Origin: Streptomyces sp. ISL-94
Lineage (GTDB): Bacteria; Actinomycetota; Actinomycetes; Streptomycetales; Streptomycetaceae
Assembly: GCF_018614075.1 (NCBI RefSeq)
Contig: NZ_JAGGOZ010000016.1
Span: forward strand, 1 to 64,000
Direction: 5' to 3'
Length of the DNA: 64,000 bases
A program made the translations under genes and the position numbers. Below, piece after piece: positions 34,621-47,321 of the stretch; the stretch's first letter is position 1; every line of letters starts with the position of its first letter. The notes beneath the pieces were generated by a model. That model searched no databases. It worked only from the letters and a program-made list of their open reading frames with translations, and had not been told where the DNA came from.

Positions 34621-34701
34621 TGTGAAGAAGGTGTGGGGGGCCGATGGCGGGAGCGCGTTCCCGCTGTCGGTCCCCTTTTCTCTGCCGTACGGTTTCTGCA
34701 G

Positions 34702-35490
34702 ATGAGTGAGACACCCCGCTCCCGGGAAATCGGGGGCGACACCAGTACCGGGCTTCCCCAGCGCCGTATTGGGCATGCGTTCGCGCACACTCCTCACCGA
34801 TCGGACGGCCGTCCGCCCCAAACCCCCCGGGGCGTGCGGCAACCCGATCCGGGCGGCCGTCCCGGAACCATCCCCCCTGTTCCGGGACGGCCGGCCATCA
34901 TCCGGCCCGCCGTCTGCCTGGCCGCCTTGTCTCTGACGGCCTTCGCCCTGATCACCTGGCAGGTCCTGGTCGCGGGCCCCCTGCTGTCCCCCGACGAGCG
35001 CCTCAGCCGCGCCGTCGTCCGCTCCGTCCCGGACGCCGTCACCGAGCGCCTGTCGGACCTCGGCAACATCCCGGTCGCGCTCCCCGTCCTGGTCCTCGCG
35101 ATCGCGTACGCCGCCTGGCGCGGCCACCGCCCCGGCGCGGCGGCCGCGGCCCTGGCCATGGCCCTGGTGCCGGCCCTGATCGTCCCGCTCAAGGAGTGGA
35201 CCGCCCGCCCGGGCCCCCTGGAGCCCTGGGCCGCCGGCTACTACCCCTCGGGCCACACCGCCACCTCGGCCGTCGCCTACATCGCCGCGGCCCTGCTGAT
35301 CCGCCCGTACACCCGCCGCGGCTGGCCGACAGCCGCCGCCCTCCTGCTGACGGCCGCCACGGCCGCCGGCCTGATCGTCCGCGGCTGGCACTGGCCGCTC
35401 GACGTCCTGGCCAGCCTGCTGCTCTGCACGCCCCTGCTGCTGGCCGTCCGATGGGCCGTACGGCGCCGCAGTGTCAGGCCCTCCGGCTAG
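34702..35490 (+). CDS. PAP2-family membrane phosphatase
   Basis: This protein of about 262 residues carries the three acid-phosphatase motifs: KEWTARPGP (K-x6-RP type), PSGHT, and RGWHWPLDVLAS with the catalytic His and Asp. Six membrane helices flank and contain them, beginning near residue 80. The first 75 residues are Pro/Arg-rich and probably cytoplasmic. Members dephosphorylate lipid phosphates such as undecaprenyl diphosphate or phosphatidate. ATG 34702 is one choice among several; the ribosome-binding site is weak, and a later start is possible. Its stop overlaps that of the convergent chitinase pseudogene (CTAG). Confidence 0.82.
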   Translation: MSETPRSREIGGDTSTGLPQRRIGHAFAHTPHRSDGRPPQTPRGVRQPDPGGRPGTIPPVPGRPAIIRPAVCLAALSLTAFALITWQVLVAGPLLSPDERLSRAVVRSVPDAVTERLSDLGNIPVALPVLVLAIAYAAWRGHRPGAAAAALAMALVPALIVPLKEWTARPGPLEPWAAGYYPSGHTATSAVAYIAAALLIRPYTRRGWPTAAALLLTAATAAGLIVRGWHWPLDVLASLLLCTPLLLAVRWAVRRRSVRPSG

Positions 35491-44080: not shown

Positions 44081-44228
44081 TTGAGTGCCGATCCTGACAG
44101 AGGAGGGCCTCTCGGCCAAGTGATTCCGTTGTTGCCTTTTGATTACGCGACGGATTCGGTCGACCATGTGTCGAGGCGTGCCCGAAATCCCGTACGAACT
44201 GTCCGTGGCGACTGTCAGACTCGCGTGC

Positions 44229-44783
44229 ATGGAGATGATCGACGACCTGATCAAGCAGGTCAGCCGTGGTGAGCGGGTGAAGTTCCTGCCGTTCTGGGGC
44301 CACCGGGCCAGGCCGGACGGGACGCTCGGGCCGAGCTGTCTCAGCCAGTGGTGGCCGTCCGCTTTCACTGTGGGTGACGTCCGTTATGCGACGGCCGAGC
44401 ACTGGATGATGGCCGGGAAGGCCCGGCTCTTCGGGGACGCGGAGGCGGAGCGGGCGGCCCTCTCGGCCCGGACCCCGGCCGAGGCGAAGAAGGCCGGGCG
44501 GCTCGTGCGCGGCTTCGACGACGCGATATGGCAGCGCGAGCGGTACGAGATCGTGGTGGAGGGCAGCGTGCACAAGTTCGCCTCCGACCCGGCACTGCGC
44601 TCGTACCTGCTGACCACCGGCGACCGGGTGCTGGTGGAGGCGAGCCCGGTCGACCGCATCTGGGGCATCGGTCTGGCCCCCGACGACGAGCGCGCCCTGG
44701 ACCCGGCGAGCTGGCGCGGCCTGAACCTGCTGGGCTTCGCCCTGATGGAGGCCCGGGAGCGGCTGAGGGCCGACGCAGCGTGA
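44229..44783 (+). CDS. NADAR-family protein (YbiA/RibX-like N-glycosidase fold)
   Basis: This protein of about 184 residues is a NADAR-superfamily member. Conserved parts are FLPFWGH near the N-terminus, [27 protein letters not shown] (with the family Glu-His-Trp/Met-Met pattern), and [10 protein letters not shown] near the end. Characterised members remove damaged riboflavin-pathway intermediates by N-glycoside cleavage, and some hydrolyse ADP-ribosyl-DNA adducts; the present substrate is not defined. ATG 44229 or 44235 are the best starts. It overlaps the following Nudix gene (GTGA), suggesting a two-gene unit for nucleotide housekeeping. Confidence 0.88.
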
Positions 44784-45211
44784 CGGACCGGCAGGCAATG
44801 CCGGAGCGGCGCCGGGTCGCCGCCGTGATCATCCGGGACGGCTGCGTGCTGATGGTGCGCGAGCGCGGGCGGGGACCCGCGGGCCGGCACGACGGGCCGG
44901 AGTACTGGACCCTGCCCGGTGGCGGGCTCGAAGCCGGCGAGCAGCCCGAGGAGGCGGTCCGGCGGGAGGTGGCCGAGGAGGTGGGGCTGCGCGCCCTGGG
45001 CGTGCGGTACGCCTACGACTCGCCGTACCCCTCGGGCTGGACCTCCTGCTTCCGTGTGGACGTCGAGCCCGGCGAGCCGGTCCTCGGCGTCGACCCGGAC
45101 CTGGAGTGCGACTGCCCGCGGATGGTCGGGCTCATCTGGGTCCCGCTGTCGCGCGGGGGCGGCGACGGCGAGGTCATGGTGCCGACGCTGCTGATGGCGG
45201 CCGCGGTCTGA
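44780..45211 (+). CDS. Nudix hydrolase
   Basis: This 143-residue Nudix protein has an intact Nudix box: [20 protein letters not shown] followed by EVGL, matching G-x5-E-x7-REUxEExGU. It hydrolyses a nucleoside diphosphate linked to another moiety; the substrate cannot be read. GTG 44780 overlaps the NADAR stop codon, with ATG 44798 as alternative. The 3' end overlaps a tandem repeat containing its stop codon. The gene is directly upstream of the Y-RNA array and Ro60 gene on the same strand. Confidence 0.9.
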
Positions 45212-45245
45212 CGGGCACGGTCTGACGGGCACGGTCTGACGGGGC
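45205..45245. repeat. 14-bp tandem repeat at the end of the Nudix gene
   Basis: GGTCTGACGGGCAC occurs at 45205-45218 and 45219-45232 and again nearly complete at 45233-45245. The first unit includes the Nudix stop codon. It is a simple tandem array, probably from slippage. Confidence 0.8.
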
Positions 45246-45278: not shown

Positions 45279-45284
45279 TAACGT
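45279..45284 (+). promoter_or_regulatory. Probable -10 element of the Y-RNA array
   Basis: TAACGT ends six bases before 45291, where the outer helix of the first RNA begins, the distance expected for a -10 box and start site. The -35 region is not convincing, and a GC-rich hairpin (GGCGCC at both ends, about 45259-45278) occupies the spacer. Confidence 0.45.
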
Positions 45285-45290
45285 GATCCT

Positions 45291-45426
45291 TGTCCAGGTG
45301 CGCAGGCGAGACATACTTCCACTCTTCATGGGGCGGTCGCGGGTTCGAGTCTCGTCACCGGCTTCCGGCCGGTGTAGCTCAGTTGGCAGAGCACCACGTG
45401 GTTTCGCCGAACTCGATCTCTGGACA
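45291..45426 (+). ncRNA. Y-RNA-like RNA 1 with permuted tRNA mimic
   Basis: The outer helix is TGTCCA (45291-45296) with TGGACA (45421-45426). An internal loop follows, with GGTGCGCA on the 5' side and ACTCGATCTC on the 3' side. Helix 2 pairs GGCGAGA (45305-45311) with TTTCGCC (45402-45408). Inside lies a circularly permuted tRNA: T-arm GCGGG-TTCGAGT-CTCGT (45339-45355), acceptor 3' strand CACCGGC (45356-45362), loop TTCCG, acceptor 5' strand GCCGGTG (45368-45374), TA, then D-arm GCTC-AGTTGGCA-GAGC (45377-45392). A short anticodon-stem stub (CATGG 45327 with CCACG 45394) joins it to the Y stem. The pieces closely resemble a real tRNA (GCCGGTGTAGCTCAGTTGG start) but in reversed order, with no anticodon and no CCA end. 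The next gene but two RNAs is Ro60. Confidence 0.88.
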
Positions 45427-45439
45427 CCCACGTCACGCA

Positions 45440-45511
45440 CCTCCCGGTGCGCAGGCTGCGGCTCCTTCTTTTGCAAAGACACCAGGCCGCCGCCACCTTG
45501 ATCTCGGGAGG
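45440..45511 (+). ncRNA. Y-RNA-like RNA 2, without tRNA mimic
   Basis: Outer helix CCTCCCG (45440-45446) pairs with CGGGAGG (45505-45511). The internal loop has the same invariant GTGCGCA (45447-45453) and TTGATCT on the 3' strand. Helix 2 is GGCTGCGGC (45454-45462) with GCCGCCGCC (45486-45494), interrupted by a single mismatch at the same place as in RNA 3. The apical part is only a small hairpin, TCTTT-TGC-AAAGA. At 72 nt this is a minimal Y RNA with the predicted Ro60-binding stem but no effector module. It could be an independent RNA or a processed piece of one long transcript. Confidence 0.72.
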
Positions 45512-45525
45512 CCGTGCGTGGGGGA

Positions 45526-45675
45526 TGCCCGGTGCGCAGGCAGCGGTTACTTCGGGGACCCGGAGGTCGTGGGTTCGAACCCCACCCGGCCCCTCGCCCT
45601 CAAGGGCGACGGCCGGTGGAGCAGCCAGGCAGCTCGCCAGGTACAAGGTCCGCCGCCGACTCCTGATCTCGGGCA
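45526..45675 (+). ncRNA. Y-RNA-like RNA 3 with permuted tRNA mimic and extended acceptor arm
   Basis: Outer helix TGCCCG (45526-45531) pairs with CGGGCA (45670-45675). The internal loop has GTGCGCA and TGATCT. Helix 2 is GGCAGCGG (45539-45546) with CCGCCGCC (45650-45657). The permuted tRNA core has a perfect T-arm GTGGG-TTCGAAC-CCCAC (45569-45585), acceptor 3' strand CCGGCC (45586-45591), an extra hairpin TCGCCC-TCAA-GGGCGA (45594-45609), acceptor 5' strand GGCCGG (45611-45616), TG, and D-arm GAGC-AGCCAGGCA-GCTC (45619-45635) with the conserved GG. A stub CCCGG (45559) with CCAGG (45637) replaces the anticodon stem. It ends 50 bp before the Ro60 start codon. Confidence 0.88.
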
Positions 45676-45725
45676 CCCCTCACGTCACGCCTCCCCCGCT
45701 TCCTTTGAATTCGGGGGGATTCACC

Positions 45726-47321
45726 ATGGCTCGTTTCAACCTGCGCGCGCTCACGTCCGAGCCCGCCCCGCCCACTTCGCCCGTCCGCTCGACCCGCCGC
45801 TCCCGCACCCGGGAAGGCGGACCGGGCCGCGAACGGGATGCCCGCTCCGAGCTGTTCCTGCTCGCGGTCGCCAACTTCGTGACCCAGCGGACCTTCTACG
45901 AGAGCGGCGAAGCCCGCGACGACCGCTTCGGCGCGCTCGTGCGCCGGCTCGCGGTCGAGGATCCCGCGTGGACCGCCGGCCTGCTCGGCTGGCTGCGCGG
46001 GGACGCGAACATGCGGACCGCCTCGCTCGTCGGCGCGGCCGAGTACGTCAAGGCGCGGCTCGACGCGGGCGCCGCCGACGGGCCGTCGAACCGCCAGGTC
46101 GTGGACTCCGTACTGCGGCGGGCGGACGAGCCCGGCGAGCTGCTGGCCTACTGGACGGCGACGTACGGCCGCAACGTGCCCAAGCCGGTCAAGCGCGGCA
46201 TCGCCGACGCCGTACGCCGCCTCTACTCCGCCACCTCGCTGCTGAAGTACGACACCGCCTCCGCGCGGCGGGGATACCGCTTCGGCGACGTCCTCAACCT
46301 CGTGCACGCCTCCCCCGACCCGGCCAAGCCCTGGCAGGGCGAGCTGTTCCGCTACGCCCTCGACCGCCGGCACAGCCCCGAGACCGCGCAGGTCCCGGAC
46401 GGCAACCGGACCCTGGCCGCCCACCGGTCGCTGATGGAGCTGCCGGTCTCCGAGCGTCGCGGGGTCGTCACCGCACCGGACGGCGCCGAGCGCCTCGCGG
46501 AGGCGGGCATGACGTGGGAGGCGCTGGCCGGGTGGCTGCAGGGGCCGATGGACGCGGCCGCCTGGGAGGCGGTCATCCCGTCCATGGGCGCGATGGCGCT
46601 GCTGCGCAACCTGCGCAACTTCGACCAGGCCGGGGTTTCGGACGAGGTGGCCTCGCGGGTCGCGGCGAAGATCTCCGACCCGGAGGTCGTGGCCCGGTCG
46701 CGGCAGTTCCCCTTCCGCTACCTGGCCGCCTACCAGCACGCGCCCTCGCTGCGCTGGGCGTACCCGCTGGAGGAGGCGCTCGGGCACTCGCTGGCCAACG
46801 TACCGGCGCTGCCGGGCCGGACGCTGGTCCTCGTCGACCGTTCCGGGTCGATGTGGTCCCCGCTGTCGGAGCGCTCGCAGCTCAACCGGGCCGACGCGGC
46901 GGCCGTCTTCGGGGCGGCGGTGGCCCTGCGCGCCGAGCACGGCGACCTGGTGCAGTTCGGCTCGGACAGCCGCGCCGTTCCCTACACCCGGGGCCAGTCC
47001 GTGCTGAAGGTGCTGGAGCGGTTCGGGAGCCTCGGCGGCACCTACACGGCCAAGGCCGTGCGGGAGCACTACCGGGGCCACGACCGGGTGCTGATCGTCA
47101 CCGACGAGCAGGCCGCCTCGTACGGTTACGGCGGAGACCCGACGGTGGAGGTTGCGGAGACGGTCCCGGTGTACACCTGGAACCTGGCCGGCTACCGGGT
47201 GGGCCACGCGCCGTCCGGTTCCGCGAACCGGCACGTCTTCGGCGGGCTCACCGATGCGGCCTTCCGCATGGTGTCCCTGATCGAGGGCGGCCGGAACGCC
47301 GACTGGCCGTGGGCGGTCTGA
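45726..47321 (+). CDS. rsr: Ro60 orthologue (TROVE domain, Rsr)
   Basis: This 531-residue protein is a bacterial Ro60: an alpha-helical HEAT-like TROVE ring (about residues 25-360) that binds Y RNA outside and single-stranded RNA ends in its central hole, then a von Willebrand A domain with an intact MIDAS, DRSGSMWS at residues 371-378. Family signs include RSELFLLAVANFVTQRTFYE, MRTASLVGAAEYVKARL and PVKRGIADAVRRLY. ATG 45726 follows GGGGGG. In Deinococcus, Ro60 and a Y RNA are known to tether polynucleotide phosphorylase for structured-RNA decay. The three RNAs immediately upstream are its probable partners. No rtcB or RNase gene adjoins it here. Confidence 0.95.
   Translation: MARFNLRALTSEPAPPTSPVRSTRRSRTREGGPGRERDARSELFLLAVANFVTQRTFYESGEARDDRFGALVRRLAVEDPAWTAGLLGWLRGDANMRTASLVGAAEYVKARLDAGAADGPSNRQVVDSVLRRADEPGELLAYWTATYGRNVPKPVKRGIADAVRRLYSATSLLKYDTASARRGYRFGDVLNLVHASPDPAKPWQGELFRYALDRRHSPETAQVPDGNRTLAAHRSLMELPVSERRGVVTAPDGAERLAEAGMTWEALAGWLQGPMDAAAWEAVIPSMGAMALLRNLRNFDQAGVSDEVASRVAAKISDPEVVARSRQFPFRYLAAYQHAPSLRWAYPLEEALGHSLANVPALPGRTLVLVDRSGSMWSPLSERSQLNRADAAAVFGAAVALRAEHGDLVQFGSDSRAVPYTRGQSVLKVLERFGSLGGTYTAKAVREHYRGHDRVLIVTDEQAASYGYGGDPTVEVAETVPVYTWNLAGYRVGHAPSGSANRHVFGGLTDAAFRMVSLIEGGRNADWPWAV

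Follow-up and report, generated by a model that had tools for sequence, protein, structure and literature searches.

RNA3, which comes third and last among the Y RNAs leading into a TROVE-domain (Ro60) gene of Streptomyces sp. ISL-94, is very probably a bacterial Y RNA that would dock on Ro60 and hold out a sealed, circularly permuted look-alike of a tRNA. Its tRNA part differs in kind between Streptomyces species as if it had been repeatedly swapped, and comparison of related loci points to exchange between lineages. Y RNAs that mimic tRNAs are known, as is their permuted topology; what appears to be new is a mimic that can be swapped, that switches type and that sometimes carries an extended arm.

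A row of three Y RNAs ahead of Ro60

In the window, the whole stretch of 64,000 nucleotides analysed here, the interval between a NUDIX gene and Ro60 carries the Y-stem motif three times (GGTGCGCAGGC... with TGATCTCGGG or a similar sequence), marking RNA1, RNA2 and RNA3, a layout that is kept beside Ro60 in most orthologous loci. For comparison we used the region 5' of Ro60 from more than 150 loci, and a covariance model, R1, was built from 30 RNA3 rows that include the window copy, RNA1 being outside the training set. The features of the locus are as follows.

45279..45284, + strand: TAACGT, a -10-like element just 5' of RNA1 (TANNNT conserved)
45292..45425, + strand: RNA1, a Y RNA with a class-I tRNA domain and without the acceptor extension (model R1 90.7 bits; Rfam YrlA 34 bits, gathering score 69)
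45441..45510, + strand: RNA2, a short Y RNA consisting of the Y stem alone, without a tRNA domain (Y core GGTGCGCAGGC, 3' TTGATCTCGGGAG; conserved in relatives)
45526..45675, + strand: RNA3, a full Y RNA, corrected boundaries (model R1 118.8 bits, this copy being among the 30 training rows; Rfam YrlA 26.9 bits over the full length, below gathering)
45726..47321, + strand: Ro60/Rsr orthologue (TROVE domain), 531 codons (Pfam TROVE E 4.6e-14; PDB TROVE proteins E 3e-30)

Ro60 here shares 83-90% protein identity with its Streptomyces orthologues, and the DNA of the window is itself Streptomyces-like. All 102 distinct upstream sequences have a TANNNT element 4-9 nt 5' of RNA1, and the spacers between RNA2 and RNA3 measure 12-18 nt, so that there would seem to be no room for another full promoter. 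Together the conserved element and the short spacers most naturally suggest that transcription starts from a single promoter and that the shared leader is then processed, TAACGT being the probable single promoter of an RNA1-RNA2-RNA3-Ro60 transcript.

The earlier note on this DNA had placed its tRNA mimic at 45547-45649, which is the mid-part of RNA3 and omits the Y stem; the true extent is about 45526-45675. It had also described RNA1 and RNA3 as different in sequence and the same in architecture, a likeness borne out by the R1 match to RNA1, except that RNA1 has no extension of the acceptor arm.

NADAR and NUDIX genes lie 5' of the RNA locus (window 44139-45212). We rejected them as partners of Ro60, as they are found within 2 kb in just 17 and 5 of 80 loci, in a close clade only. 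The window also contains, at 34700-34805, a small RNA already known from Streptomyces, Rfam Scr5676.

A permuted tRNA body closed by a Y stem

From 5' to 3', RNA3 runs through the Y stem 5' strand, UACUUC, anticodon-stem strand 39-43, the variable loop, the T-arm and the acceptor 3' strand, and then through the extension hairpin, the acceptor 5' strand, the D-arm, anticodon-stem strand 27-31 and the Y stem 3' strand. Sequence, pairing and covariation show its tRNA domain to be a whole tRNA body, circularly permuted, with the Y stem standing where the anticodon loop would be. The parts are listed below.

45526..45546, + strand: Y stem, 5' strand (presumed Ro60-binding); near-invariant among 30 aligned homologues, pairs with 45650-45675
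45548..45553, + strand: UACUUC, junction of Y stem and anticodon stem; UACUU invariant in 30 of 30 aligned RNA3s
45559..45563, + strand: anticodon-stem strand 39-43, CCCGG; covaries in 96 class-I RNA3s
45564..45568, + strand: variable loop AGGTC, directly after anticodon-stem strand 39-43
45569..45585, + strand: T-arm GTGGG-TTCGAAC-CCCAC; five T-stem pairs in 134 of 134 distinct RNA3s
45586..45591, + strand: acceptor stem 3' strand CCGGCC, pairs with 45611-45616
45594..45609, + strand: extension hairpin TCGCCC-TCAA-GGGCGA, which caps the acceptor stem; extended arm in nine loci
45611..45616, + strand: acceptor stem 5' strand GGCCGG, pairs with 45586-45591
45619..45635, + strand: D-arm GAGC-AGCCAGGCA-GCTC, with an A11:U24 pair and GG in the loop (from sequence and fold)
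45637..45641, + strand: anticodon-stem strand 27-31, CCAGG; CCGGG in relatives (G29-31:C39-41), from comparison with them
45650..45675, + strand: Y stem, 3' strand, with conserved CTGATCTCGGG (from the alignment of 30 and pairing)

UACUUC recurs in RNA1, and its counterpart in RNA2 is UCCUUC.

Folding energy set against shuffles gives modest extra stability (z -1.15 for the span of the earlier note, z -1.98 for 45525-45678), so that single-sequence folding alone would not prove the structure. Across 30 RNA3 homologues, however, a 34-pair structure has 96.3% of its cells paired, compared with 86.1% in column shuffles and 31-52% in slid controls; none of 500 shuffles was as high on any measure, and both sides have changed at 19 pairs. 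Helices 1 and 2, the paired 5' and 3' ends that form the Y stem, are paired in 99% and 90% of cells, acceptor pairs 1-7 form in 95-100% of RNA3s, mostly with several pair types, and the anticodon stem is paired in 85-99% of the 96 class-I RNA3s, with exchange among U-A, C-G and G-C. Positions 32-38 in the class-I RNA3s are mostly C-A, a combination that is common in real tRNAs.

Once the tRNA order was restored and an anticodon loop invented, ARAGORN called a tRNA in 96/96 class-I RNA3s, compared with 1/96 in native order and 0 when shuffled; at the native locus it called none, as expected for a permuted domain. Rfam gave no match at the RNA3 locus at gathering scores, and we set aside matches to tRNA-Sec and an Mg-riboswitch (E ~1) as chance overlaps. 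Covariation, which extends over the Y, anticodon, T, acceptor and D stems, the model matches and the un-permutation test support the earlier view that RNA3 has a structure under selection and is a second tRNA mimic that has diverged, and the T-arm, the D-arm with GG in its loop, and the acceptor stem with its hairpin, all first pointed out there, are present and fold as claimed.

The tRNA that is mimicked differs between species

When RNA3 bodies are scored against the tRNAs of the window's own genome, the best match varies by species and includes Arg-ACG, Lys-CTT, Leu-CAG, Asn, Trp, His and, in the group of the window, initiator Met. The body of L122 scores 91 with Arg-ACG (runner-up 47) and that of L094 scores 84 with Lys-CTT (runner-up 60), and Leu-CAG is the best match for 35 RNA3 sequences; many assignments have small margins, the margin being at least 8 in 59 of 134. 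In the 38 sequences with a Leu-type D-arm there is usually also a long variable arm, and its hairpin varies in sequence from species to species. The stem of this arm averages 5.7 versus 4.1 in shuffles; the excess is modest, since chance pairing is frequent in a G+C-rich stretch of 22 nt.

The two halves, D and T, are widely separated in the Y RNA and stand in inverted order, and they agree on the tRNA type to a degree that none of 2000 re-pairings reached. With the anticodon stem left out, the profile correlation still exceeded all 2000 re-pairings, also without Leu, and a weaker measure without Leu was matched by 39/2000. The acceptor stem of RNA3 does not track the mimicked tRNA.

For the window copy the best joint match is fMet, with a modest initiator identity of 53/73. 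The likeness to initiator tRNA-fMet lies in the D-arm (GGAGCAG..GG..AGCTCG), in the variable loop AGGTC and, among relatives, in G29-31:C39-41, whereas RNA3 differs in being permuted, in having no anticodon loop and in its unrelated, capped acceptor stem. Initiator tRNAs have three G-C pairs at 29-31:39-41, and these are found in L003, L091, L104, L106, L237 and L240; in the window the anticodon stem (45637-45641/45559-45563) is kept with a single A-C mismatch, A29-C41. The A11:U24 pair of the window RNA3 agrees with R11:Y24, a named feature of initiator tRNAs (PMC9976931), and Streptomyces tRNA-Asp has the same pair here, as well as the D stem GGAGC/GCTC; this sharing, the modest identity and the mismatch weigh against the initiator reading. 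The mismatched 1-72 position that initiators have at an open acceptor end is absent from RNA3, in which the acceptor end is closed by a hairpin.

The acceptor extension belongs to a restricted set of loci

The stretch from T-stem to D-arm measures 30-31 nt in the window and eight other loci; other lengths are 14-15 nt (five pairs and a loop), 17-20 nt (seven pairs and a UUCG-like loop) and, in one locus, 25 nt. Two of the nine extended loci, L106 and L238, encode the same Ro60 protein and are probably one organism from two collections. The earlier note had named the absence of the extension, or the loss of its pairing, in close relatives as the observation that would refute its reading. The extension is restricted to the nine loci, the other scored RNA3s having 14-25 nt (L156, with 64 nt, apart), and it is missing from several close relatives (for example L002, L004-L008 and L092-L096); because of these relatives, it is best read as an allele of a lineage and not as a general part of RNA3. 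All nine extended copies have an initiator-like body (D-arm GGAGCAG..GG..AGCTCG and ACCCGGAGG[T/C]C), and initiator-like bodies also occur without the extension, in L005, L101, L286 and L294.

The extended arm folds in every extended copy, in two registers. On the question of whether it covaries, its length and the arm itself are kept, but the covariation found by comparative folding is thin, with one clearly compensatory change: the G-C pair of the window corresponds to A-U in L240, and elsewhere to A-C or A-A. Only L091 departs from the otherwise constant inner CCC/GGG.

Could the hairpin be a signal in the transcript rather than a part of the mimic? It is strong and G+C, and closely spaced RNAs presumably need processing, as a transcription terminator or an RNase processing signal would imply. 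There is no T-run after it, however, it is enclosed by the two strands of the acceptor stem, which covary, and RNA3 homologues that lack it retain the same flanks. We consider a signal of either kind very improbable, and the first two points lead us to reject the terminator.

In L156 the acceptor arm of RNA3 contains a short repeat (TGTGTCAGAATTC) and is expanded to 64 nt.

Exchange of the tRNA body between lineages

RNA1 keeps one type, with a single type of D-arm across genomes, where the RNA3 body changes kind between species. Among pairs of loci whose Ro60 DNA is 86-96% identical, body identity falls below 0.7 for RNA3 in 31 of 145 and for RNA1 in none, the pairs being non-independent. L091 (initiator type, extended) and L093 (Lys type, without the extension) are 92-100% identical over most of RNA1, RNA2 and the start of Ro60, whereas their RNA3 domains are 42-55% identical. 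Parsimony on the Ro60 protein tree gives at least 13 changes between Leu and non-Leu, and 42 changes of best-match label, a count inflated by uncertain labels. On the Ro60 gene tree, a single clade is rejected both for the initiator-type loci (p 1.9e-50) and for the extended loci (p-AU 6e-5), these groups having been named post hoc and Ro60 being a gene that may itself recombine. Vertical descent of the extension from one origin on the Ro60 tree was rejected; horizontal spread of one allele was not.

What would rewrite the tRNA part of one RNA and spare its neighbour? One answer refines, and does not oppose, the explanation we prefer. The RNA3 slot might be a hypervariable cassette holding a decoy, tethered to Ro60, that copies a single tRNA species in each case (initiator, Arg, Lys, long-variable-arm Leu or another), an isoacceptor-specific bait or inhibitor for tRNA-attacking nucleases or toxins that diversifying selection swaps between Streptomyces lineages; the acceptor extension would be a further specificity element, the long sealed arm serving as part of the disguise or as a block to an acceptor-end enzyme. 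Consistent with this, the body switches type beside a constant RNA1, its two halves agree on one tRNA type to an extent not seen on re-pairing, and the swap is limited to the tRNA domain between near-identical flanks; for YrlA, moreover, a role as competitive inhibitor of an anticodon nuclease has been proposed (PMC7790460). Yet the toxin or nuclease is hypothetical, the anticodon loop that many anticodon nucleases need is missing from RNA3, and recombination without selection for identity could also give rapid change, and we put the decoy forward tentatively, as a rather unlikely refinement.

The other answer, which we regard as possible and short of probable, is that a generic L-shape suffices, that the body is occasionally rewritten by recombining tRNA or foreign RNA3, and that the extension is a tolerated hitch-hiking insertion. 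An acceptor stem that does not follow the mimicked tRNA fits such rewriting, as does the wide variation in acceptor length (14, 17-20, 25, 30-31 and even 64 nt), and tandem tRNA-Asn genes of the same genome already show the permuted topology. It fits less well with the nine loci in which the length and hairpin of the extension are kept despite sequence change, with two separated halves and an anticodon stem that all point to one tRNA type, and with an RNA1 that is not rewritten in the same locus. Both readings of the body type and the long arm are live.

The tandem tRNA-Asn genes, in the window's own genome (L206, G000:C67:59400-59860), match the permuted model at their junction with 42 bits. 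Tandem genes for the same tRNA present the permuted topology at such a junction, and they are a possible origin of mimics of this kind.

Known relatives and a proposed mechanism

RNA3 has the features of a bacterial Y RNA (Yrl): an adjoining Ro60/Rsr (TROVE) gene, a conserved end stem, and T, acceptor and D arms. With YrlA (Rfam RF02553; Salmonella YrlA, 6CU1) it shares the Y stem, the permuted T-acceptor-D domain and the adjoining Ro60/Rsr gene, and the circularly permuted tRNA order is already known from structure 6CU1 (PMC11472068). The Rfam YrlA matches to RNA1 and RNA3 are weak but correctly placed, and RNA3 differs from the family in scoring below its cut-off (26.9, with RNA1 at 34 and gathering at 69), a shortfall that reflects the limited reach of one curated model and not a biological defining feature. 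RNA3 differs from YrlA further in its initiator-like body, in an anticodon stem that tracks the tRNA type, in the lengthened acceptor arm of this lineage, and in a slot that holds different tRNA types in different species. The tRNA-like domain of tmRNA is likewise a tRNA mimic inside a longer RNA, but its acceptor end is open and receives alanine, whereas that of RNA3 is sealed by a hairpin.

YrlA is gripped at its stem by Rsr; PNPase binds to its tRNA-like domain, which DusA and TruB modify (PMC8394870). In the mechanism we propose for RNA3, its paired ends form the stem through which it would dock on the Ro60 ring, the product of the adjoining 3' gene, and its outer part is a permuted tRNA body. 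The Y stem takes the place of the anticodon loop and a hairpin seals the acceptor end, and Ro60 would thus hold a tRNA look-alike that can be neither charged nor used in decoding. Such a look-alike may recruit or divert proteins that recognise the tRNA elbow and the D and T arms, candidate partners being modification enzymes, PNPase and possibly tRNA-attacking nucleases; in this lineage it has an initiator-like body and a sealed acceptor arm lengthened by a second hairpin.

RNA3 suggests that tRNA mimicry by Y RNAs reaches the anticodon stem and long-variable-arm (Leu-type) tRNAs, neither of which is described in the literature examined, which did not extend to the main primary papers (among them Chen et al. 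2014); nor does that literature describe the extension, an anticodon stem that tracks the tRNA type, or a switch of type between sister lineages. Few partners are known for the tRNA-like part of bacterial Y RNAs, and an RNA3 slot that changes between near-sister species beside a constant RNA1 is a natural experiment, whose contrast could separate partners that track the body type from those that track the Y stem.

Short Y RNAs also occur apart from this locus. Ro60 paralogues (about 72% identical; L078-L081) each have one short Y RNA 5' of the gene, without a tRNA domain. The same genome as the window holds an orphan short Y RNA (L269:1501-1591; G000:C130:96640-96730), flanked by metK-like and priA-like ORFs, and a similar sequence is found in G053 and G039.
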